64,000 nt of DNA from contig NZ_NCSY01000006.1 of the NCBI RefSeq assembly GCF_002156875.1, positions 62,001 to 126,000 of the forward strand, in the 5' to 3' direction. Source of the DNA: Bacillus sp. EAC. GTDB lineage: Bacteria; Bacillota; Bacilli; Bacillales; Bacillaceae_G. Shown piece by piece: positions 28,904 to 35,785 of the stretch. The stretch's first letter is position 1. Every line of letters begins with the position of its first letter. The notes under the pieces were generated by a model. That model saw only the letters and a program-made list of their open reading frames with translations. It had not been told where the DNA came from and did no database searches. A program made the translations under genes and the position numbers.

Positions 28904-30133
28904 TTATTGTCTTTTTAGAAGTCTTCCTACGTCTTTCCATTTTACCTTTTCGCTGTAATACATTACTCCGTTTACATAGATACGACTAGCAACTCTAGTT
29001 AAAATTGCAATCGTAACGACTAAAATGATAATACTTGCACTTACCTCAAAGAAGTTCATTTCACCACTCACAAAACGCGAGAATGCTACTAGAGGAGCAA
29101 AAAATGGTATATACGAGCTTATTTGTACAAATGTACCATTTGGATTCACTAATGCATTTATGCTAATGAAAAATGCTGCTACTACTAAAATTGTAAGAGG
29201 CATCAATACCATTTGAAGCTCTTCTGTTCTAGAAACGACAGATCCAATTGCTGCGTAAAGCAAGCCATAGATAAAATAACCTAAGAGGAAGTAAACAACA
29301 AAGGCTACAATTGTTGCAAAGCTTAATGAGTCCAAATTAATTTTAGTCCCAAAAAATGATAAAGCATCAAGATTAACCCAATCTAATAGATAAGCAAACA
29401 AAAATCCTATTCCTAAAACACCTAATTGTACACATGCTACACAAAATACTGCGATTACTCGACCGTATAATGTCACGACAGGGCTAACTTTAGGTAATAA
29501 AACTTCCATTACTCTTGATGATTTTTCAGCAACGATCCCTGTAGCAATTGAATTCCCATAAATTAATAGAAACATATATAATAAAAATCCAAAAAAGTAT
29601 GCTATTCCGAATGTAGCCATAGGATCCTTTAGTACTTCTTCGTTCACTTCTACTTTTTGTAATAATTTTGTAGCTGCTTCAGGAGAAAGTTTAAGATCTT
29701 GAGCAGTTTTCGTTAAATAATTTTGCTGTAGTGTCATATTTAGACTAGAAATGACTTCATTATTTGAAAACTTTTTATATGTATATTGAACAGTCGGAAC
29801 ATCGTTTTTTTCTGAAATAACAATTAAACCATCTTTAGTTTCATCAGATACTTGTTTTTTTATCTCTTTTTCTTGATTTGGATCAGCTTGCTCTATTGTT
29901 GCTGTTTTTATTAAATTGGACAAACTCCTCTTATCTAATTTGTAGCTTGCCGTCTCATTTATAATAACAATTTTATCCTTCTCTTCTTTACCTTTTTCAG
30001 AAGTCGCAAAGTATTTCTGTATTCCAAATAACCCTACAACTAATACAAATAAGATTACACTCATAATCATAGTTGCTTTTGCCATTAACCCTTCACGTAA
30101 ATGAAATAAAAAGACCGTTTTAAATTTATTCAT
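28904..30133 (-). CDS. yhaP: ABC transporter permease (YhaP/NatB-like)
   Basis: 409 residues of the ABC-2 type: one N-terminal membrane helix (about 18-40), a large extracytoplasmic domain (about 45-175, K/E rich), then five or so C-terminal helices. This architecture matches YhaP and NatB, exporter permeases with a suggested role in Na+ or peptide efflux. The ATG follows the ATPase stop without any gap (TAAATG), so the two are translated together. Confidence 0.8.
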   Translation of the reverse strand: MNKFKTVFLFHLREGLMAKATMIMSVILFVLVVGLFGIQKYFATSEKGKEEKDKIVIINETASYKLDKRSLSNLIKTATIEQADPNQEKEIKKQVSDETKDGLIVISEKNDVPTVQYTYKKFSNNEVISSLNMTLQQNYLTKTAQDLKLSPEAATKLLQKVEVNEEVLKDPMATFGIAYFFGFLLYMFLLIYGNSIATGIVAEKSSRVMEVLLPKVSPVVTLYGRVIAVFCVACVQLGVLGIGFLFAYLLDWVNLDALSFFGTKINLDSLSFATIVAFVVYFLLGYFIYGLLYAAIGSVVSRTEELQMVLMPLTILVVAAFFISINALVNPNGTFVQISSYIPFFAPLVAFSRFVSGEMNFFEVSASIIILVVTIAILTRVASRIYVNGVMYYSEKVKWKDVGRLLKRQ

Positions 30134-31018
30134 TTATTTCGCCCTCTCAATAAAGATATCATTTAGTGTTGGTTCTAATAATTGGAATTTTCGAATAGAA
30201 CCTACTTCTGACTTGATATGATTTAAAATGTTAAATGCTTCTTCATCACTTTTAACCTTTACATATATTCCTAGTTGTTTACTTTCAAAATTAATTTCAA
30301 GTGAGTTTAAGATATTCTTAGTCGAATCAATATCTTCAAGTATTAAATTTCGATATCCATACTCTTCTTTTAAACTAGTTAAGCTTCCTTCAGCTACTAC
30401 ATTTCCATTTTTCAAAATACAAACATGCTCACAGAATGCTTCCACTTGATCCATTCGATGACTAGATAATACAATTGTCTTTCCTTTTTTAATTTCTTCA
30501 GAAAGAATGGTTGCCATTAATTCTGCGTTAACTGGATCTAATCCACTAAATGGTTCATCTAAAATAATTAACTCTGGGTTATGTAATAGCGTTACAATTA
30601 ACTGGATTTTTTGCTGATTCCCTTTCGAAAGCTCTCCAGCTTTTTTATGACGATAGTGTGGTATTTCTAACCTTTCTAACCAATAAGTTATCGCTTCATC
30701 TAGCTCTTTGTTCGACATTCCTTCCAATTTCCCAAAGTATTTAAGCTGGTCTACTACCTTACTTTTTGTATATAATCCTCTTTCTTCAGGTAGATAGCCT
30801 ACTTTTACTTTTGAAGATTGAAACGACCTTCCATTCCATTTCATTTCCCCACTTGTTGGTGTGAGAAGACCTAAAATCATTTTAATCGTAGTAGTTTTGC
30901 CAGCACCATTCCTACCTAATAAACCAAGTACTCTTCCTGTAGGTAAAGATAATGACAATTGATTAACTGCAATCGTTTCACCAAATTTTTTTGACAGTTG
31001 CTCGATTTCTAGTGTCAT
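30134..31018 (-). CDS. yhaQ: ABC transporter ATP-binding protein (YhaQ-like)
   Basis: 294 residues: Walker A GLLGRNGAGKTTTIKMI (about 36-52), signature LSKGNQQKIQL, Walker B LIILDEPFSGLDPVNA, H-loop LSSHRMDQVE, and an extended C-terminal region as in exporters of the NatA/YhaQ type. The start is the ATG at 31018 behind AAAGGAGG. With the permease it forms a two-component exporter; the substrate is not visible. Confidence 0.85.
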   Translation of the reverse strand: MTLEIEQLSKKFGETIAVNQLSLSLPTGRVLGLLGRNGAGKTTTIKMILGLLTPTSGEMKWNGRSFQSSKVKVGYLPEERGLYTKSKVVDQLKYFGKLEGMSNKELDEAITYWLERLEIPHYRHKKAGELSKGNQQKIQLIVTLLHNPELIILDEPFSGLDPVNAELMATILSEEIKKGKTIVLSSHRMDQVEAFCEHVCILKNGNVVAEGSLTSLKEEYGYRNLILEDIDSTKNILNSLEINFESKQLGIYVKVKSDEEAFNILNHIKSEVGSIRKFQLLEPTLNDIFIERAK

Positions 31019-31266
31019 ATATTGGCCTCCTTTAAAAAGCTGTTTATATACATATAGTTTAAGCATACATTTAATTTACCTTTAGCAAAAGGGAAAAAAT
31101 GTAAAATTACAAAAAGTTTTAAACTCCGTTAAAGTTTAAATTTGATACCATTAGACTCCTGCAGAAAAACCAGATTACCAAAATCCATAAAATGGTACTA
31201 ATAAGAAGTCTCGGTGGTTCGTCTCCGGAAACACTAATGATTTTTAACGTAATACATGATGATTAA

Positions 31267-31397
31267 GTTGATTGGAACGGAAGGTGCTTGACACCTGTTG
31301 GAGTTGCGGGAAGGGTGATAGCCCGCAGACGCGAATGGGTCGAGGAGGCTCACCTATCGCCCCACTAAAAAGCAAGCATCCTGGAGTGGAAATCAAC
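31267..31397 (-). repeat. Intergenic repeat, full copy (minus orientation)
   Basis: GTTGATTGGAACGGAAGGTG at the left, GTCGAGGAGGCTCACC inside, AGCAAGCATCCTGGAGTGGA and AATCAAC at the right. It lies in a 461-bp gap upstream of the YhaQ-like gene. The stretch 31120-31260 has a decayed match (AGACTCCTGCAG, GTCTCGGTGG) that may be an older copy. Confidence 0.85.
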
Positions 31398-31439
31398 AAA
31401 GATTCCACTTAAATATAATCAAAGTTTAAAAGAACCCCC

Positions 31440-31471
31440 AAAAAAGAGAATGCCAACTCCAGCATTCTCTA
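31440..31471 (-). terminator. Terminator of the yshE operon
   Basis: AGAGAATGC / GCATTCTCT stem, 8-nt loop and T run on the minus strand after yshE. Confidence 0.85.
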
Positions 31472-31479
31472 AATTTAAA

Positions 31480-31881
31480 TTAATACGAAATACTACCTGA
31501 AATTAATAAACCAACTGTCACACTTAATGTTAATAATAAAATTGCTACTGCAATATTTCCTTCTTCCACCTTTTTTGCAAAAGAAATTTTCGGGAATAAA
31601 ATAAACTCAGCGATCCAATATGTAATCATCTGTGCTACTACACCAAAAAAGCTCCACAAAATGAAATCTGTAAAATTAACTGAGTATTTCGCAGCTGACA
31701 TGATGACAATTGCTAAACCAACTAATTTTCCAGCTAATTTTAATGCAACAGCTATATTTCCATCTTCTAATATCAATTTTTGTTCACTCATTTTAGTTGT
31801 AAAAGTAAAAGCTATAAACCCAATAAATAAAATAATAAGTCCTGTGACTAAATATAATAATGTACTTAAAATACTATCCAT
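31480..31881 (-). CDS. yshE: DUF350 family membrane protein
   Basis: 133 residues with four hydrophobic helices in two related halves (each contains an EDGNIAVA / EEGNIAVA segment followed by a helix), the hallmark of DUF350 (E. coli YjfL, B. subtilis YshE). Position upstream of mutS2 and downstream of the fatty-acid block matches yshE. It is the last gene of a three-gene operon with the ATP-grasp ligase (29-bp gap) and the lipoprotein. Function unknown; a membrane partner for the ligase is likely from conserved gene neighbourhood. Confidence 0.85.
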   Translation of the reverse strand: MDSILSTLLYLVTGLIILFIGFIAFTFTTKMSEQKLILEDGNIAVALKLAGKLVGLAIVIMSAAKYSVNFTDFILWSFFGVVAQMITYWIAEFILFPKISFAKKVEEGNIAVAILLLTLSVTVGLLISGSISY

Positions 31882-31910
31882 TTACAAACTCATCTCCTAA
31901 TACTATGTTT

Positions 31911-33161
31911 TTATTTTTCTTCTAAATGCTCGATCAATCCAACTGGTAAAAAACAACTTTCATTACCTGTTATAAGATTTCCTGCACGAACGCCAATCGC
32001 ACCAGCTTCTTCTTTAATAAGAAAACTTCCTACTAAAATATGTAACTCTATTAATCCTTCAGGAGTCATCACTTTTTTCTTAGGTAATGGCGCAAACTGC
32101 TGATATACCATCACTTGATTTTGATAGGTATTCTGCTTACTTTGCTGATTACAATCACCATCTATTATTCTTATTGTATCTCCCTCACGTCCAAAAGCTG
32201 GCTTCTCAACGTACGCAAGATTATTTTCAATAAAATAATCCGGTTCTAGGTAAGTTGGTAAAAAGTGCTTCTCAATAATGTTATGTTCTTCACTTGTAAA
32301 TAAATCTGAGCCTTCAGTATGCAGGTTCCAAATTAATGATTGAACTGCCTTTGATTGAAGTAAAAAGGAAGATATTGGATTTAGAATAATTAACTTTCCA
32401 CTTTTTACAAGCTCTAATAAGGCCAAGCCAATTAAAGTCCCATCTGGAGATTTATCTAACTCCATATGTTCAAGTGGATAAGTTTGTCGATAAAGAACGT
32501 GGATCTGTTCGCCATTTGGAGTAAATAGCCCTTTATTTTCAATGATCTGTAATTCAACTAGTGGCACTAACTGACTCTCACCATGATACAGAGATTGTAG
32601 ATATTGTGTTGTTTTCCAATCCTCCTCATGATCACCATGAGCTGTAAATACTACAATTGGTTTTTCTAGTCTATTAATACTTTTTGATATGACTTGATTT
32701 AAAACGTTTGATAATTGTTTTTCACTTTTCCCGTTCGGATTTTCCACATTAAAATGCTCTGATACAAATCCATTTACATGATGAGTCTCCATAATAAATG
32801 TAGGTGTGTCACTGTTACATTCGAAATGTTTCCATCCGTCAACAGTTTGAACAAGGTCAATTCTTCTAATAATCCCTTCGCTTTCCATCGTTTTTTGACG
32901 TAGAAAAGGTACAATTTCCTTCGAATATCCAAGTAAATAGAATATATCATCTGGAAGTTGCCTCATTAAACGAGCAGTTTTATCGTAAATTTCCCCAATT
33001 TGTTCAGTAATTATATGAATTTCTTCGACTTCTAATTTTGTTATTGGATAAATATCTAATAGAGCATAATACGTATTTTGTAAATCAGCCCAAAAATCGG
33101 GAAGTCTTTTATAAAATTCTTCTCGACTTCGCTGATGTTTTTTTAAATTGGATTTATCCAT
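31911..33161 (-). CDS. Glutathionylspermidine synthase-like ATP-grasp ligase
   Basis: 416 residues of the GSP_synth family (E. coli YgiC/YjfC type, without the amidase domain). Recognisable blocks: HFECNSDTPTFIMET, VVFTAHGDHEEDWKTTQYL, YVEKPAFGREGDTIRII (ATP-binding lysine and GREG loop), VMVYQQFAPLP and GAIGVRAGNLITGNESCFLP. The enzyme should form an amide bond using ATP; the true substrates of YgiC/YjfC-type proteins are not known. It starts 2 bp after the lipoprotein stop, so the two are translationally coupled. Confidence 0.85.
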   Translation of the reverse strand: MDKSNLKKHQRSREEFYKRLPDFWADLQNTYYALLDIYPITKLEVEEIHIITEQIGEIYDKTARLMRQLPDDIFYLLGYSKEIVPFLRQKTMESEGIIRRIDLVQTVDGWKHFECNSDTPTFIMETHHVNGFVSEHFNVENPNGKSEKQLSNVLNQVISKSINRLEKPIVVFTAHGDHEEDWKTTQYLQSLYHGESQLVPLVELQIIENKGLFTPNGEQIHVLYRQTYPLEHMELDKSPDGTLIGLALLELVKSGKLIILNPISSFLLQSKAVQSLIWNLHTEGSDLFTSEEHNIIEKHFLPTYLEPDYFIENNLAYVEKPAFGREGDTIRIIDGDCNQQSKQNTYQNQVMVYQQFAPLPKKKVMTPEGLIELHILVGSFLIKEEAGAIGVRAGNLITGNESCFLPVGLIEHLEEK

Positions 33162-33163
33162 TC

Positions 33164-33520
33164 TTAACCACCAAATCCCCCAAACGATCCTTTACCAAAA
33201 CCACCTTTAGAAGATGAACTATGACCAGCAAATTTACTAGAGGTTTTATAGCTTTTATATGAACTGCTTCCATGTAATGACTTTCTCGAGGGATAAAAAA
33301 ATCCTCCATGGTAATAACTGTGATAATGGGAACTAGTACTGTCATCACATACCCAAACACCTTCATCATCATCAAACTCCCAATCACGGCAATCATCATT
33401 TTGAGGCTTATCTGGTCTATCTGCAGTTTGTGACGAACCACAACCTGCTAATGAAGTTACTACTATTCCTCCTGTTAGTGCAACACTAACTTTTTTCATT
33501 AATAATGATGTTTTAGACAT
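33164..33520 (-). CDS. Lipoprotein with acidic centre and Ser/Gly-rich tail (YgiB/YjfM-like)
   Basis: 118 residues. N-terminal lipoprotein signal VALTGGIVVTSLAGCGSS (lipobox LAGC, Cys about 27), an acidic Cys-containing stretch (NDDCRDWEFDDDEGVWVCDD), a His/Tyr-rich piece (SSHYHSYYHGGFFYP), then a Ser/Lys/Gly tail ending GKGSFGGFGG. The lipobox plus S/G-rich C-terminus beside a YgiC-type ligase recalls E. coli YgiB/YjfM (DUF1190), but the sequence is diverged. The ATG at 33520 follows AGAGGAG. First gene of the operon; its tail may be the ligase substrate (inference). Confidence 0.75.
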   Translation of the reverse strand: MSKTSLLMKKVSVALTGGIVVTSLAGCGSSQTADRPDKPQNDDCRDWEFDDDEGVWVCDDSTSSHYHSYYHGGFFYPSRKSLHGSSSYKSYKTSSKFAGHSSSSKGGFGKGSFGGFGG

Positions 33521-33766
33521 ACGTATCTCCTCTTTATGATTAAAGTTATTCACTACTATAGTAAACTATCTTATCTCTTAAAGTATATAAAAAGTATGAT
33601 TCAATTTAACGATATTTTAATTATTTCAGTGATTTCTTTTACCCATTGTAGCAACTTGAAATGCCACTTCCAAAACTTCCCCTCATCATGAAATAAATTC
33701 ATACTTCCCTATCCTAAAGTGTGTTATATAATTATGTATATACAAATATTAAAGGAGTTTGAACTT

Positions 33767-34207
33767 ATGTTTAATACAAACAACATATTTGTTCTTGAAT
33801 ATAGATTAATCGATGGTGATCTAATTCGACCAATCTATCATTTTCCATTTTTATCTAAAGTACAAATTTTTACTAGAAGACATTGTGATTATTTTATTTT
33901 AAATGGTTTCGTTTATGAAAATAGAGGATCATATATTGAAAATGATCGGTATGTAATTGAAGTTATTGGATCAGAGATAGAAAACACCCCGTTTTACCAG
34001 GTTAAGAGGCCAATCGGAATTGAAATAAGGGATGTAGATACTTTTGAAGAAATCCATTTTTTTGAAAGTGAAGATGAGCTGGATCTATACTCATGGTTGC
34101 AATCAACTTATATTACAATCAATAATCAAATTTATGAACAAACTTCAAATGAAGTCGATCAAGACCGTGATACATATGTAATGTACGTCAAACCTTTTAC
34201 TGATTAA
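33767..34207 (+). CDS. Protein of unknown function
   Basis: 146 residues, no signal or membrane segment, acidic (many D and E) and rich in I, Y and F, with alternating beta-like stretches (VLEYRLIDGDLIRPIYHFPF; RYVIEVIGSEIENTPFYQV). The start is the ATG at 33767, nine bases after AAAGGAG; a longer upstream frame lacks an SD. It is divergent from the lipoprotein operon and followed by a terminator. No family recognised. Confidence 0.65.
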   Translation: MFNTNNIFVLEYRLIDGDLIRPIYHFPFLSKVQIFTRRHCDYFILNGFVYENRGSYIENDRYVIEVIGSEIENTPFYQVKRPIGIEIRDVDTFEEIHFFESEDELDLYSWLQSTYITINNQIYEQTSNEVDQDRDTYVMYVKPFTD

Positions 34208-34208
34208 A

Positions 34209-34253
34209 AAAATGGAGCTACCAAGCCTACTAAAAAGGTAGCTCCATTTTTTG
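34209..34253 (+). terminator. Terminator
   Basis: AAAAAATGGAGCTACC / GGTAGCTCCATTTTTT stem after the unknown gene. Confidence 0.85.
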
Positions 34254-34295
34254 CTATTTTCGTAAACTTTGATGCAAGTAAACATTGAGACCTGT

Positions 34296-34384
34296 AGATT
34301 TCCACTCCAGAATGCTCACTTTCCATGGGACGGCGGTGAGCTCATGAAATCAAGTATGTAGGGTCTCATCTTCCGCTTCAATCA
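34296..34384 (+). repeat. Intergenic repeat, shortened copy (plus orientation)
   Basis: TAGATTTCCACTCCAGAATG, CTCACTTTCCATGGGACGGC, GGTGAGCTC, AGGGTCTCATCTTCCGCTTC, AATCA. The ACTCCCACAGGAGTCTCGC segment is missing, which shortens it by about 40 bp. Confidence 0.75.
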
Positions 34385-34449
34385 TTTTCTATATTAACCG
34401 AATACTTAAACGAAACCTTAAAAAACAAAAATCTTTTAGAGGAAAGCCA

Positions 34450-34905
34450 TTATAAAACTTGTTCAAGCTTGATTAAATCTTTGCATTGAATTCCATTTTC
34501 CCATATCTCATCTTTATAATTTTTAATAAAGAAATCTTTGAAAATATTCGATATTTGAAATCCACATTTTTTATATAAGGCTAACTGTAATGTACTTGAG
34601 TTCCCAGTACATATAAAAATTTTTGAATAACCAAGTATTTTAGCTTCTTTAATCCCAAAATTTATTAATTTTTTTCCAAAACCTCTTCCCTGAAACGAGG
34701 ATTCAATTGCAATATTCTTAATCTCAACTTCTTCTTTAGAAATTTCAAATAAAACAATAATCCCCATTAATGAATTATCTTCTAAAACTTCATAAATCTT
34801 ACTTTTATGAATATACATCTCTACCATTTTTTTTGACGGATCAGCTAGTAATAAGAGACTCCAATGTTTATTTGTAAGATTTTTAGTTTTATTTATTGTT
34901 AACAT
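34450..34905 (-). CDS. GNAT family N-acetyltransferase (YvbK-like)
   Basis: 151 residues. Core EIKNIAIESSFQGRGFGKKLINFGIKEA holds the CoA loop Q-G-R-G-F-G, followed by IFICTGNSSTLQLALYKKCGFQ. The overall pattern resembles B. subtilis YvbK. The start is the ATG at 34905 (TAGGA upstream); another ATG two codons earlier is too near the SD. 8 bp upstream of it ends the esterase gene, so both are probably co-transcribed. Substrate unknown. Confidence 0.75.
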   Translation of the reverse strand: MLTINKTKNLTNKHWSLLLLADPSKKMVEMYIHKSKIYEVLEDNSLMGIIVLFEISKEEVEIKNIAIESSFQGRGFGKKLINFGIKEAKILGYSKIFICTGNSSTLQLALYKKCGFQISNIFKDFFIKNYKDEIWENGIQCKDLIKLEQVL

Positions 34906-34918
34906 GACCATTCCTACT

Positions 34919-35785
34919 TTATTTTTTTAATCTAGCTTTTAAAAAATTAATCGTATCATTTGTAGACTTCTGGATGGAAAGATTCGTAAATCCATGATTT
35001 CCGTTTTTTAATGCGATTAAGGTTACTTTTTTGGGATTTTTTTTAGCAAACTTCTCTGATTGACTAAAAGGAACTAGTGCGTCTCCCGTCCCATGAACAA
35101 TAAAGATTGGAATTTTTGCTTGTTTAACATATTGGATTGGGCTCATACGATTATATTCATCTGTCATTTGCTCAACCGTACTATTCATGTAGCTTTCAAC
35201 TATTTCAGTACTTTTCAAGGAAGGTGATTGATGCATAGTCGTTAGATCTGAAATGGGATACCAGGCTATAATATAATTAATTTTATTTTGTATGTCTGGT
35301 TGAAGACCAGTCAATAACGCTAAGTGCCCTCCAGCAGATGCACCAGCAAGACCAATTTGCTTTCGATCGATACCTAATTCAGCTGAATTTTTATAAATAA
35401 AATTGATTGCCGATTTTACATCTCGTACAGGATAATTATACGAATATTCTTTTTGAGAATATAGGGTATAGTCAATGCTAATTGCAGTGTAACCGTCTTT
35501 TACAATTTCGTTAAATATTGTTTTCCAGCGTTTATTTAATTCTTTACTTCCGTATCTCCAAGATCCACCGTGTACAAAAATCAATGCAGGAGAAGGTCCA
35601 TGATAATTTTTAGAACGGTATAGATCAAAGGTTTCCGGAAGTTCAACTGGATTAGTGTAGCGTACATTCCTTTGAACAATTATATCTTTATTCTCTTTAA
35701 TCTGTTTCGGTGGATTATGTTGAAACAAATTAATGCCTACAAACGCAACGACAAAGATGATTAACGCTATAATGCCTTTCTTCAA
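34919..35785 (-). CDS. Membrane-anchored alpha/beta hydrolase (esterase)
   Basis: About 288 residues. N-terminal signal anchor (GIIALIIFVVAFVGINLF), then an alpha/beta hydrolase of the BD-FAE/esterase-lipase type: oxyanion motif FVHGGSW, nucleophile GLAGASAGGHLALL (G-x-S-x-G), acid in VHGTGDALVP and His in KNGNHGF. The active domain would be outside the membrane. The start is set at a TTG at 35785, eight bases after AAAGGTGA; a GTG four codons earlier overlaps the SD. Substrate unknown. Confidence 0.8.
   Translation of the reverse strand: MKKGIIALIIFVVAFVGINLFQHNPPKQIKENKDIIVQRNVRYTNPVELPETFDLYRSKNYHGPSPALIFVHGGSWRYGSKELNKRWKTIFNEIVKDGYTAISIDYTLYSQKEYSYNYPVRDVKSAINFIYKNSAELGIDRKQIGLAGASAGGHLALLTGLQPDIQNKINYIIAWYPISDLTTMHQSPSLKSTEIVESYMNSTVEQMTDEYNRMSPIQYVKQAKIPIFIVHGTGDALVPFSQSEKFAKKNPKKVTLIALKNGNHGFTNLSIQKSTNDTINFLKARLKK

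Follow-up and report, generated by a model that had tools for sequence, protein, structure and literature searches.

What does an ATP-grasp ligase act upon when its gene begins two base pairs behind that of an exported lipoprotein? The question is raised by a gene cluster of Bacillus sp. EAC that lies in a stretch of 64,000 nucleotides (contig NZ_NCSY01000006.1, positions 62,001 to 126,000), hereafter called the window, which is the whole stretch of DNA analysed. A preliminary description of the window had reported a three-gene operon coding for the lipoprotein, a glutathionylspermidine-synthase-like ligase and a DUF350 membrane protein, and had guessed that the ligase acts on the C-terminal glycine of the lipoprotein. 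We located the three genes in this order on the minus strand, with gaps of 2 bp between the lipoprotein stop and the ligase ATG and of 29 bp between the ligase stop and the DUF350 start. A fourth member, here called P4, had been overlooked, so that the cluster consists of four genes (Table 1). The likeness to E. coli yjfL-yjfM-yjfC and ygiB-ygiC that had been pointed out is real in domains and in gene order. We found that the lipoprotein ends in a conserved tail, shared by other proteins encoded next to such ligases, which from its sequence looks like the recognition and acceptor site of the ligase.

The ligase and its accompanying genes

The window ligase matched the Pfam family GSP_synth (PF03738) over profile positions 14-368 of 371, with 174.5 bits (cut-off 29.3) and an expectation value (E) of 5e-51. 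Its nearest solved structures by sequence were E. coli YgiC (7uk8, E 1.2e-14) and YjfC (7uk6, E 3e-11), to which it was 25 and 21 percent identical, respectively, and for both of which the RefSeq product name is peptide--spermidine ligase. To judge by the title of Pederick 2023, YgiC and YjfC are reportedly peptide-spermidine ligases. That work is cited in PMC12568646, PMC10948618 and PMC12270671. In an alignment of 19 sequences, R100, D102, E114, N116, K320, R325 and E326 were retained in the window ligase; the R-x-D...E-x-N residues matter in Cp1B, an enzyme that couples an organic acid to L-amino acids, according to the accessible text of PMC12568646. Glutathionylspermidine synthetase proper (GspS) was discarded as an identity for the protein, which scored 32 bits vs 882 on the bifunctional model and in whose 416 aa no amidase domain was found. 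The DUF350 protein matched PF03994 with 115.7 bits (cut-off 26; E 2e-33). The host genome contained one GSP_synth match and one DUF350 match.

GSP_synth was detected, at E up to 1e-3, in 125 of 397 genomes of the host's order. We compared 121 ligase loci, namely the window and 120 fetched stretches, the latter covering G014 and 117 of the 124 ligase-positive genomes other than the host, two of which contributed two stretches each; G004, G011, G039, G103, G231, G333 and G396 lay outside this set, and G004, G039 and G231 were fetched later. As judged by profile, the lipoprotein was present at 119 of the 121 loci, DUF350 at 112, P4 at 103 and an ion channel at 53, the channel gene lying on the ligase strand at 21 loci and on the opposite one at 32. 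Three gene orders were seen: P4-lipoprotein-ligase-DUF350, lipoprotein-DUF350-P4-ligase-channel and, without P4, lipoprotein-ligase-DUF350-second ligase-channel. The profile found no lipoprotein at two loci. At L159 the ligase adjoins another kind of lipoprotein, whose C-terminus is AVGG; at L179 the ligase stands alone, and its residues D102, E114 and N116 have all been replaced. Among contigs with a close ligase, the eight that carry names belong to Gottfriedia or Bacillus species.

At the genome level, the lipoprotein family (E < 1e-4) was found in 118 of the 125 ligase-positive and in none of the 272 ligase-negative genomes, and P4 (E up to 1e-5) in 107 and none, respectively; about ten candidates were scored per genome in these searches. 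With E up to 1e-3 the lipoprotein profile matched 120 genomes, 118 of them ligase-positive, and the two ligase-negative matches (G125, 2.4e-4; G195, 5.2e-4) were weak and covered the first 44-55 profile positions only. Seven of the ligase-positive genomes had no lipoprotein. The ligase matches of G004, G039, G103 and G396 were fragmentary or weak, and that of G231 lay at a contig edge; L159, with its different lipoprotein, belongs to G165, and L179, with its altered ligase, to G332. Seven families among those of 20 listed ligase-negative genomes also include ligase-positive ones. The preliminary description had staked its reading on the three genes being found together in relatives, and they were. 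Its remark that B. subtilis keeps the DUF350 gene alone, presumably yshE, agreed with the control rows for this species, in which DUF350 was found and GSP_synth was not; SpeE and SpeD were matched there as well.

A conserved tail at the lipoprotein C-terminus

The window lipoprotein comprises a signal peptide ending in LAG-C27, an acidic core from C44 to C58, a Tyr/His-rich stretch and the end GKGSFGGFGG. Inspection showed a lipobox (LAG-C27, the cysteine being conserved in 75/75 sequences), which predicts lipidation. When 75 lipoproteins were aligned, the invariant columns were Cys27, Cys44, Cys58, Gly107 and Gly118, the last residue, and the nearly invariant ones K3, T4, P39, S63, G73, G109 and G111. 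The C-terminus follows the pattern G-[FIM]-G-x-G-...-G-[GS]. As Ser-ending copies were absorbed by the alignment, raw sequence ends give the better count of the tail: 127 of 128 ligase-linked copies ended in G-[GS] (121 in GG, 6 in SGS; L064 had no tail), and 126 of 128 had G-[FIMYW]-G within the last 35 residues. Among the other frames of at least 200 aa at the same loci, spurious ones included, a GG end occurred in 0/316 and a G-[GS] end in 1/316. In GlyGly-CTERM sorting tails, the Gly-Gly is followed by a hydrophobic helix and basic residues. On inspection, the window lipoprotein showed no such GlyGly-CTERM or rhombosortase-type extension, its chain ending at the tail.

The tail was also present on copies encoded away from the ligase. 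Thirteen second lipoprotein sites were seen in ligase-positive genomes, and the eleven with E up to 1.3e-7 were fetched (G070, 1.1e-4, and G020, 4.2e-4, both matches to the N-terminal part, were left out). Seven of these unlinked paralogues ended in GG and four in GS, the tail of L194 being shortened and stopping at KSGFGS; those of L189-L192 adjoin a DUF350 gene. The glycine end named in the preliminary description thus stood for most copies, with Ser in its place in 6/128 linked and 4/11 unlinked ones. In Gottfriedia, where lipoprotein genes occur in tandem, six of seven pairs were compared: 12 of 14 tail residues were identical within the pairs, vs 7-10 of 28-30 in the linker before the tail, 15-17 of 34 in the core and 20-25 of 27-37 in the signal peptide. 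The seventh pair, L174, was omitted; its upstream copy ends in SGVSGG.

The tail codons of the window include GGGGG and lie 2 bp from the ligase ATG, so that they could merely hold the ribosome-binding site of the next gene, with the Gly-rich end as a by-product, and this possibility was tested. All 38 copies situated apart from any ligase start kept G-[GS]. These copies are a weaker control because 28 lipoprotein copies sit 12-73 nt ahead of a DUF350 start, a spacing that speaks for the translational explanation. The six upstream Gottfriedia paralogues, by contrast, end 91-115 bp short of the next gene, and the unlinked copies L194-L199, though not cases of the L193 type, are followed by a frame on the opposite strand (frames of at least 100 aa considered). 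Four Rhodobacterales plasmid loci have their DUF1190 gene after the ligase, and the tail is still present. Shine-Dalgarno-like strings were found in 52/90 adjacent, 21/38 non-adjacent and 6/10 unlinked copies (L191 failed a filter), with no excess in the adjacent ones. Together these observations rule out a ribosome-binding-site artefact as the general cause of the tail, and we regard this explanation as very improbable.

Similar ends were seen in DUF1190 lipoproteins. The window lipoprotein end, KGGFGKGSFGGFGG, fits the DUF1190-type tail (G-[FY]-G plus a G-[GS] end). E. coli YgiB has RGGFG near its C-terminus and ends in SMGG, and YjfM has RGGYG and ends in HWGG. Of 107 DUF1190 matches in plasmid records, 60 were listed and ten of these were compared. 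All ten contained G-F-G; nine ended in G-[GS] and one in CCG, and an Arg stood two residues before G-F-G in eight, the exceptions being Loktanella and Azospirillum. Taking YgiB, YjfM and these ten together, G-[FY]-G was found in 12/12, the preceding Arg in 10/12 and the G-[GS] end in 11/12. For Halomonas, the lipoprotein sequence begins at an internal start codon, and in this stretch the frame of the ligase is broken.

Outside the host's order, the tail also occurs on proteins that the lipoprotein profile does not recognise. The ligase matched in 38 of 348 genomes of the phylum, 37 besides the host, and the 19 best-matching loci, all outside the host's order, were read (18 genomes with weaker matches were left out). 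At seven of the 19, the protein adjoining the ligase bore the full tail. Six of these proteins (L232, L234, L237, L238, L239 and L242) fell outside the lipoprotein profile at E 1e-3 and one (L236) inside it; L237-L239 have a similar Cys/Tyr-rich core, and L232, L234 and L242 look different. For the tail proteins of L232, L237, L242 and L159, no Pfam family was matched at E up to 0.01. Judged from these sequences, the tail rule is strong inside the host's order and in DUF1190, and weaker in other Bacillota. These comparisons lend weight to the guess that the C-terminal Gly of the lipoprotein is where the ligase acts: few parts of the protein are as well conserved as the tail, which is common to YgiB, YjfM and other DUF1190 proteins and recurs on unlinked paralogues and on proteins outside the family profile.

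Kinship of the lipoprotein and other features of the locus

The preliminary description had suggested a comparison of the 118-residue lipoprotein with DUF1190 (PF06693). A Pfam search with the protein gave no match up to E 10, which rules out direct membership, and no DUF1190 match was found in three genomes of the host genus. Profile comparison with hhalign joined the window-type lipoproteins to those of the tandem-ligase clade with 99.6 percent probability, and this clade to DUF1190 with 96.5 percent (E 7e-10) via the Cys-containing cores and a W-F-P...A-G-R block; compared directly, window type and DUF1190 reached 61 percent, with the signal peptide alone covered. PF06693 was matched by 8 of the 75 family members at E up to 1, and when ten members were scanned singly, seven matched, one of them (L061) above the cut-off. 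We take this to suggest a remote kinship through the intermediate clade rather than membership. Across the 348 phylum genomes the lipoprotein profile gave eight matches at E up to 1e-3; the window type appears mostly restricted to the host's order because just two of them, the host and G608 (3e-16), were convincing. In the Gottfriedia relatives L164 (2328-2915), L165, L168, L171, L174, L175 and L176, a second lipoprotein with a longer acidic N-terminal linker lies upstream of the first; the window has no second copy. At L232 (823-1485) and L234 (819-1484), loci of one class, a further exported lipoprotein is encoded right after the ligase and ahead of DUF350. That of L232 was considered as a DUF4247 protein and this was ruled out, as it matched no Pfam family at E up to 0.01.

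P4 belongs to a family without a name. No convincing family was found for its 59 members in Pfam (best E 0.006, in 1/59; no family in more than 3/59) or in NCBIfam (best E 0.007, in 1/59), nor was any convincing match found among PDB sequences (best E 2.4). Identity with YjfK (DUF2491) or YjfI (DUF2170) was rejected at hhalign probabilities of 0.08 and 0.05 percent, both weak tests with five-sequence profiles. The family has a nearly invariant signature, E-x-D-E-D-R-x-x-Y, in which the window protein carries Q at the second E. In an AlphaFold2 model (mean predicted local distance difference test score 91.8), the predicted order of strands and helices repeats as two beta-beta-alpha-beta-beta-beta halves. 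Three of the 53 ion channels were scanned and matched Ion_trans_2 and TrkA_N/RCK domains.

The single terminator of the preliminary description corresponds to a weak hairpin 3' of the DUF350 gene. As two terminator-like sites were observed in positions 30000-35000 vs a mean of 1.7 in shuffles, its role as operon terminator is only suggestive. Promoter-like matches showed no overall excess over the shuffle expectation, one of them lying in the lipoprotein-P4 gap (Table 1). A PADLOC scan of the four window proteins gave no anti-phage defence match at E up to 0.1.

Table 1. Features of the ligase cluster, with positions in the window.
Feature	Position	Strand	Basis or remark
Lipoprotein, 118 aa, proposed ligase substrate	33164..33520	-	ATG at 33520; ribosome-binding site AGAGGAG
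Lipobox Cys27 (LAGC), predicted lipid attachment site	33440..33442	-	invariant, 75/75 aligned
Acidic core bounded by invariant Cys44 and Cys58	33347..33391	-	both 75/75 aligned
C-terminal 14-residue tail, conserved, end GGFGG; proposed recognition and acceptor site	33167..33208	-	sequence conservation
Glutathionylspermidine-synthase-like ATP-grasp ligase, 416 aa	31911..33161	-	PF03738 5e-51; YgiC 7uk8
Ligase active-site stretch R100-x-D102 ... E114-x-N116	32814..32864	-	alignment; pattern as in Cp1B, compared without alignment
Ligase stretch K320-P-A-F-G-R-E-G327, putative ATP-binding role	32181..32204	-	alignment
DUF350 (YjfL family) membrane protein, 133 aa	31480..31881	-	PF03994 2e-33
P4, 146 aa, family without name; divergent here, on the operon strand in many relatives	33767..34207	+	ribosome-binding site AAAGGAG
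Terminator-like hairpin 3' of DUF350 gene	31445..31470	-	2 sites vs shuffle mean 1.7
Lipoprotein-P4 intergenic region, expected place of both promoters	33521..33766	.	promoter-like match 33645-33673, minus

Some ligase loci departed from the usual form. At L179 and L208 the ligase stands alone and its active-site Asp, Glu and Asn are replaced, as if activity and substrate had been lost together. Split or partial ligase matches were seen at L024 and L027 (G011), L204 (G039) and L205 (G004), some of them inside the host genus, and these suggest that the system may have been lost repeatedly. In other Bacillota, L240, L241 and L245 have the ligase inside single frames of more than 800 aa, and G705 and G489 have two GSP_synth matches in one frame, as if tandem ligases had been fused.

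A possible modification of the tail

Glutathionylspermidine synthetase attaches spermidine to glutathione at the C-terminal Gly. The reading that we favour, with grounds for acceptance and for doubt in about equal measure, is that the window ligase caps a protein tail, coupling an amine, most likely spermidine, to the C-terminal carboxylate of the lipoprotein before export. The cluster would represent the YjfL-YjfM-YjfC system in a compact form found in Bacillota. Its ligase would recognise the tail G-[FIM]-G-x-G-...-G-[GS] of the exported lipoprotein, phosphorylate the terminal carboxylate and then couple the amine, before or during export, and the capped product would act at the membrane with the DUF350 protein, with P4 and, in many relatives, with a nearby RCK-type channel. 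The Gly/Ser-ending tail recurs on different proteins, and the family that carries it is restricted, within the surveyed order, to ligase-positive genomes, as fits a C-terminal acceptor. The modification would have to precede export because the lipoprotein is exported, its two core cysteines suggesting an extracytoplasmic fold, and the ligase needs cytosolic ATP; P4 and the DUF350 protein are candidates for a step giving access before export. As for the amine, matches of the SpeD type and of the SpeE type were found in the host, two of each, and an arginase-family gene, probably an agmatinase, adjoins one SpeE. At L220 (1-2187; G000:C25, at about 368 kb), an Orn/Lys/Arg decarboxylase domain is followed by a spermidine synthase domain in one frame, and a second S-adenosylmethionine decarboxylase match lies at 365.8 kb on the same contig.

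Part of this arrangement is known from Proteobacteria. In E. coli yjfI-yjfJ-yjfK-yjfL-yjfM-yjfC and ygiB-ygiC, a DUF1190 lipoprotein adjoins a GSP_synth ligase, with DUF350 in the yjf cluster; the ligase follows the lipoprotein gene after 2 bp (yjfM) or 5 bp (ygiB), and YgiB and YjfM carry R-G-G-[FY]-G near the end and finish in GG. Unlike the E. coli yjf cluster, the window cluster lacks PspA, YjfI and YjfK among its genes (the other loci were not searched for them) and has P4 instead, and unlike YgiB and YjfM its lipoprotein has no DUF1190 Pfam match. In the accessible text of Ravi et al. 2024 (PMC11237479), PspA operons are described with this ligase, DUF350, a DUF1190 lipoprotein termed "metal-chelating", DUF2491 and a potassium channel, along with variants without the PspA dyad, and links to the monitoring of polyamine concentration and to covalent modifications are proposed in general terms. 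These group 3 operons share with the window-type loci the association of ligase, DUF350, lipoprotein and channel and the polyamine link. They differ, as far as that text is accessible, in being PspA-CesT/Tir operons and their variants, in that the lipoprotein is called metal-chelating and not a substrate, and in that neither a tail nor anything P4-like is mentioned (PMC11237479). A complete set of the group 3 kind was present in Rhizobium.

Glutathionylspermidine and trypanothione synthetases belong to the same ATP-grasp ligase family as the window ligase, with glutathione as their substrate. Glutathione is unlikely to be the natural peptide substrate here, as Firmicutes such as Bacillus use bacillithiol in its place (PMC4360819, accessible part). 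Peptide aminoacyl-tRNA ligases, which attach an amino acid to a scaffold peptide, also extend the C-terminus of a ribosomal peptide at the expense of ATP; they are tRNA-dependent and serve natural-product biosynthesis (PMC10979984). Neither the tail rule nor P4 was found described in the literature searched, a coverage outside which most subscription papers lie. A 2009 amidoligase survey may already treat this gene neighbourhood. The gene association is in print for Proteobacteria, and what is new is the variant seen in Bacillota, with its P4 gene and a tail common to several proteins.

Other roles for ligase and tail were weighed against capping with a polyamine. The ligase may act on the tail and attach to it an amino acid, a short peptide or, through its amino group, a wall or lipid component, so that the tail anchors or extends the lipoprotein. 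The tail and the co-occurrence fit such a partner equally well, ATP-grasp ligases vary in the amine they use, as with the L-amino acids of Cp1B (PMC12568646, accessible part), and the host polyamine genes are located outside the window cluster; given that the nearest characterised relatives are named peptide-spermidine ligases and that spermidine-synthesis genes are present in the host, we consider it unlikely. Alternatively, the product could be a small free peptide-polyamine that the lipoprotein binds or senses, the tail docking the ligase, the DUF350 protein or the channel. GspS-type enzymes do use a small peptide, glutathione, and the accessible text of PMC11237479 combines a metal-chelating DUF1190 lipoprotein with the monitoring of polyamine concentration. 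The classic substrate is, however, probably lacking where bacillithiol is used (PMC4360819, accessible part), and a tail at the extreme C-terminus of several different proteins is better suited to an acceptor than to a docking patch, which leaves a free product rather unlikely.

It is quite improbable, in our view, that the tail is a flexible Gly/Ser spacer or a sorting signal independent of the ligase, the co-occurrence arising from a common membrane-stress pathway only. A low-complexity linker does precede the tail in many copies and the end residue varies, and among the 19 ligase loci of other Bacillota four had no tail protein and eight a deviant tail. Against a spacer, the tail stays fixed while the linkers of the Gottfriedia pairs diverge, none of the 316 other frames ends in GG, no hydrophobic stretch follows the Gly as it does in sorting tails, and the lipoprotein family was not found in the 272 ligase-negative genomes.

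Several points also tell against polyamine capping of the tail. Its main difficulty is topology, the lipoprotein being exported and the ligase not, and the bond, the amine and any phenotype are hypothetical. A tail rich in Gly and Ser could also serve for docking or be a mere low-complexity element. At the 19 loci of other Bacillota, the eight deviant tails comprise five with G-[FI]-G and an AS, SS or VS end (L231, L233, L235, L243 and L244) and three with a Ser/Gly-rich end alone (L246, L247 and L248). No tail protein was found within the stretch examined at L240, L241, L245 and L249, three of which are single frames of more than 800 aa. L237-L239 may be distant kin of the lipoprotein, hence some of the six tail proteins outside its profile would not be unrelated to it. 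The tail argument is weakened by the terminal Ser of some linked and unlinked copies and, for the Gottfriedia pairs, by the omission of L174 with its SGVSGG end and by the similarity of the signal peptides as well. In the 28 copies close to a DUF350 start, the tail codons might still contribute to the translation of DUF350. Finally, the co-occurrence counts come from related genomes and from lipoprotein and P4 profiles that were derived from ligase loci.

YgiC/YjfC-type ligases of Proteobacteria and Bacillota are named for an in-vitro peptide-spermidine activity, and no established natural substrate for them was found in the literature searched. A tail that accompanies these ligases across phyla, genome positions and several proteins offers a specific candidate substrate and bond. 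Tentatively, and with doubt outweighing confidence, we propose that this portable C-terminal tail may mark exported proteins of Bacillota and Proteobacteria for ATP-dependent polyamine amidation by YgiC/YjfC-type ligases. This would be a dedicated protein modification, one ligase serving several unlinked and perhaps unrelated substrates, and distinct from hypusine and from transglutaminase products. Polyamines are classic blockers of potassium channels, and a polyamine-capped tail could act on the DUF350 protein or on the ion channel, for example as a tethered blocker. If this is true, protein C-termini would undergo a polyamine modification that is genetically encoded.

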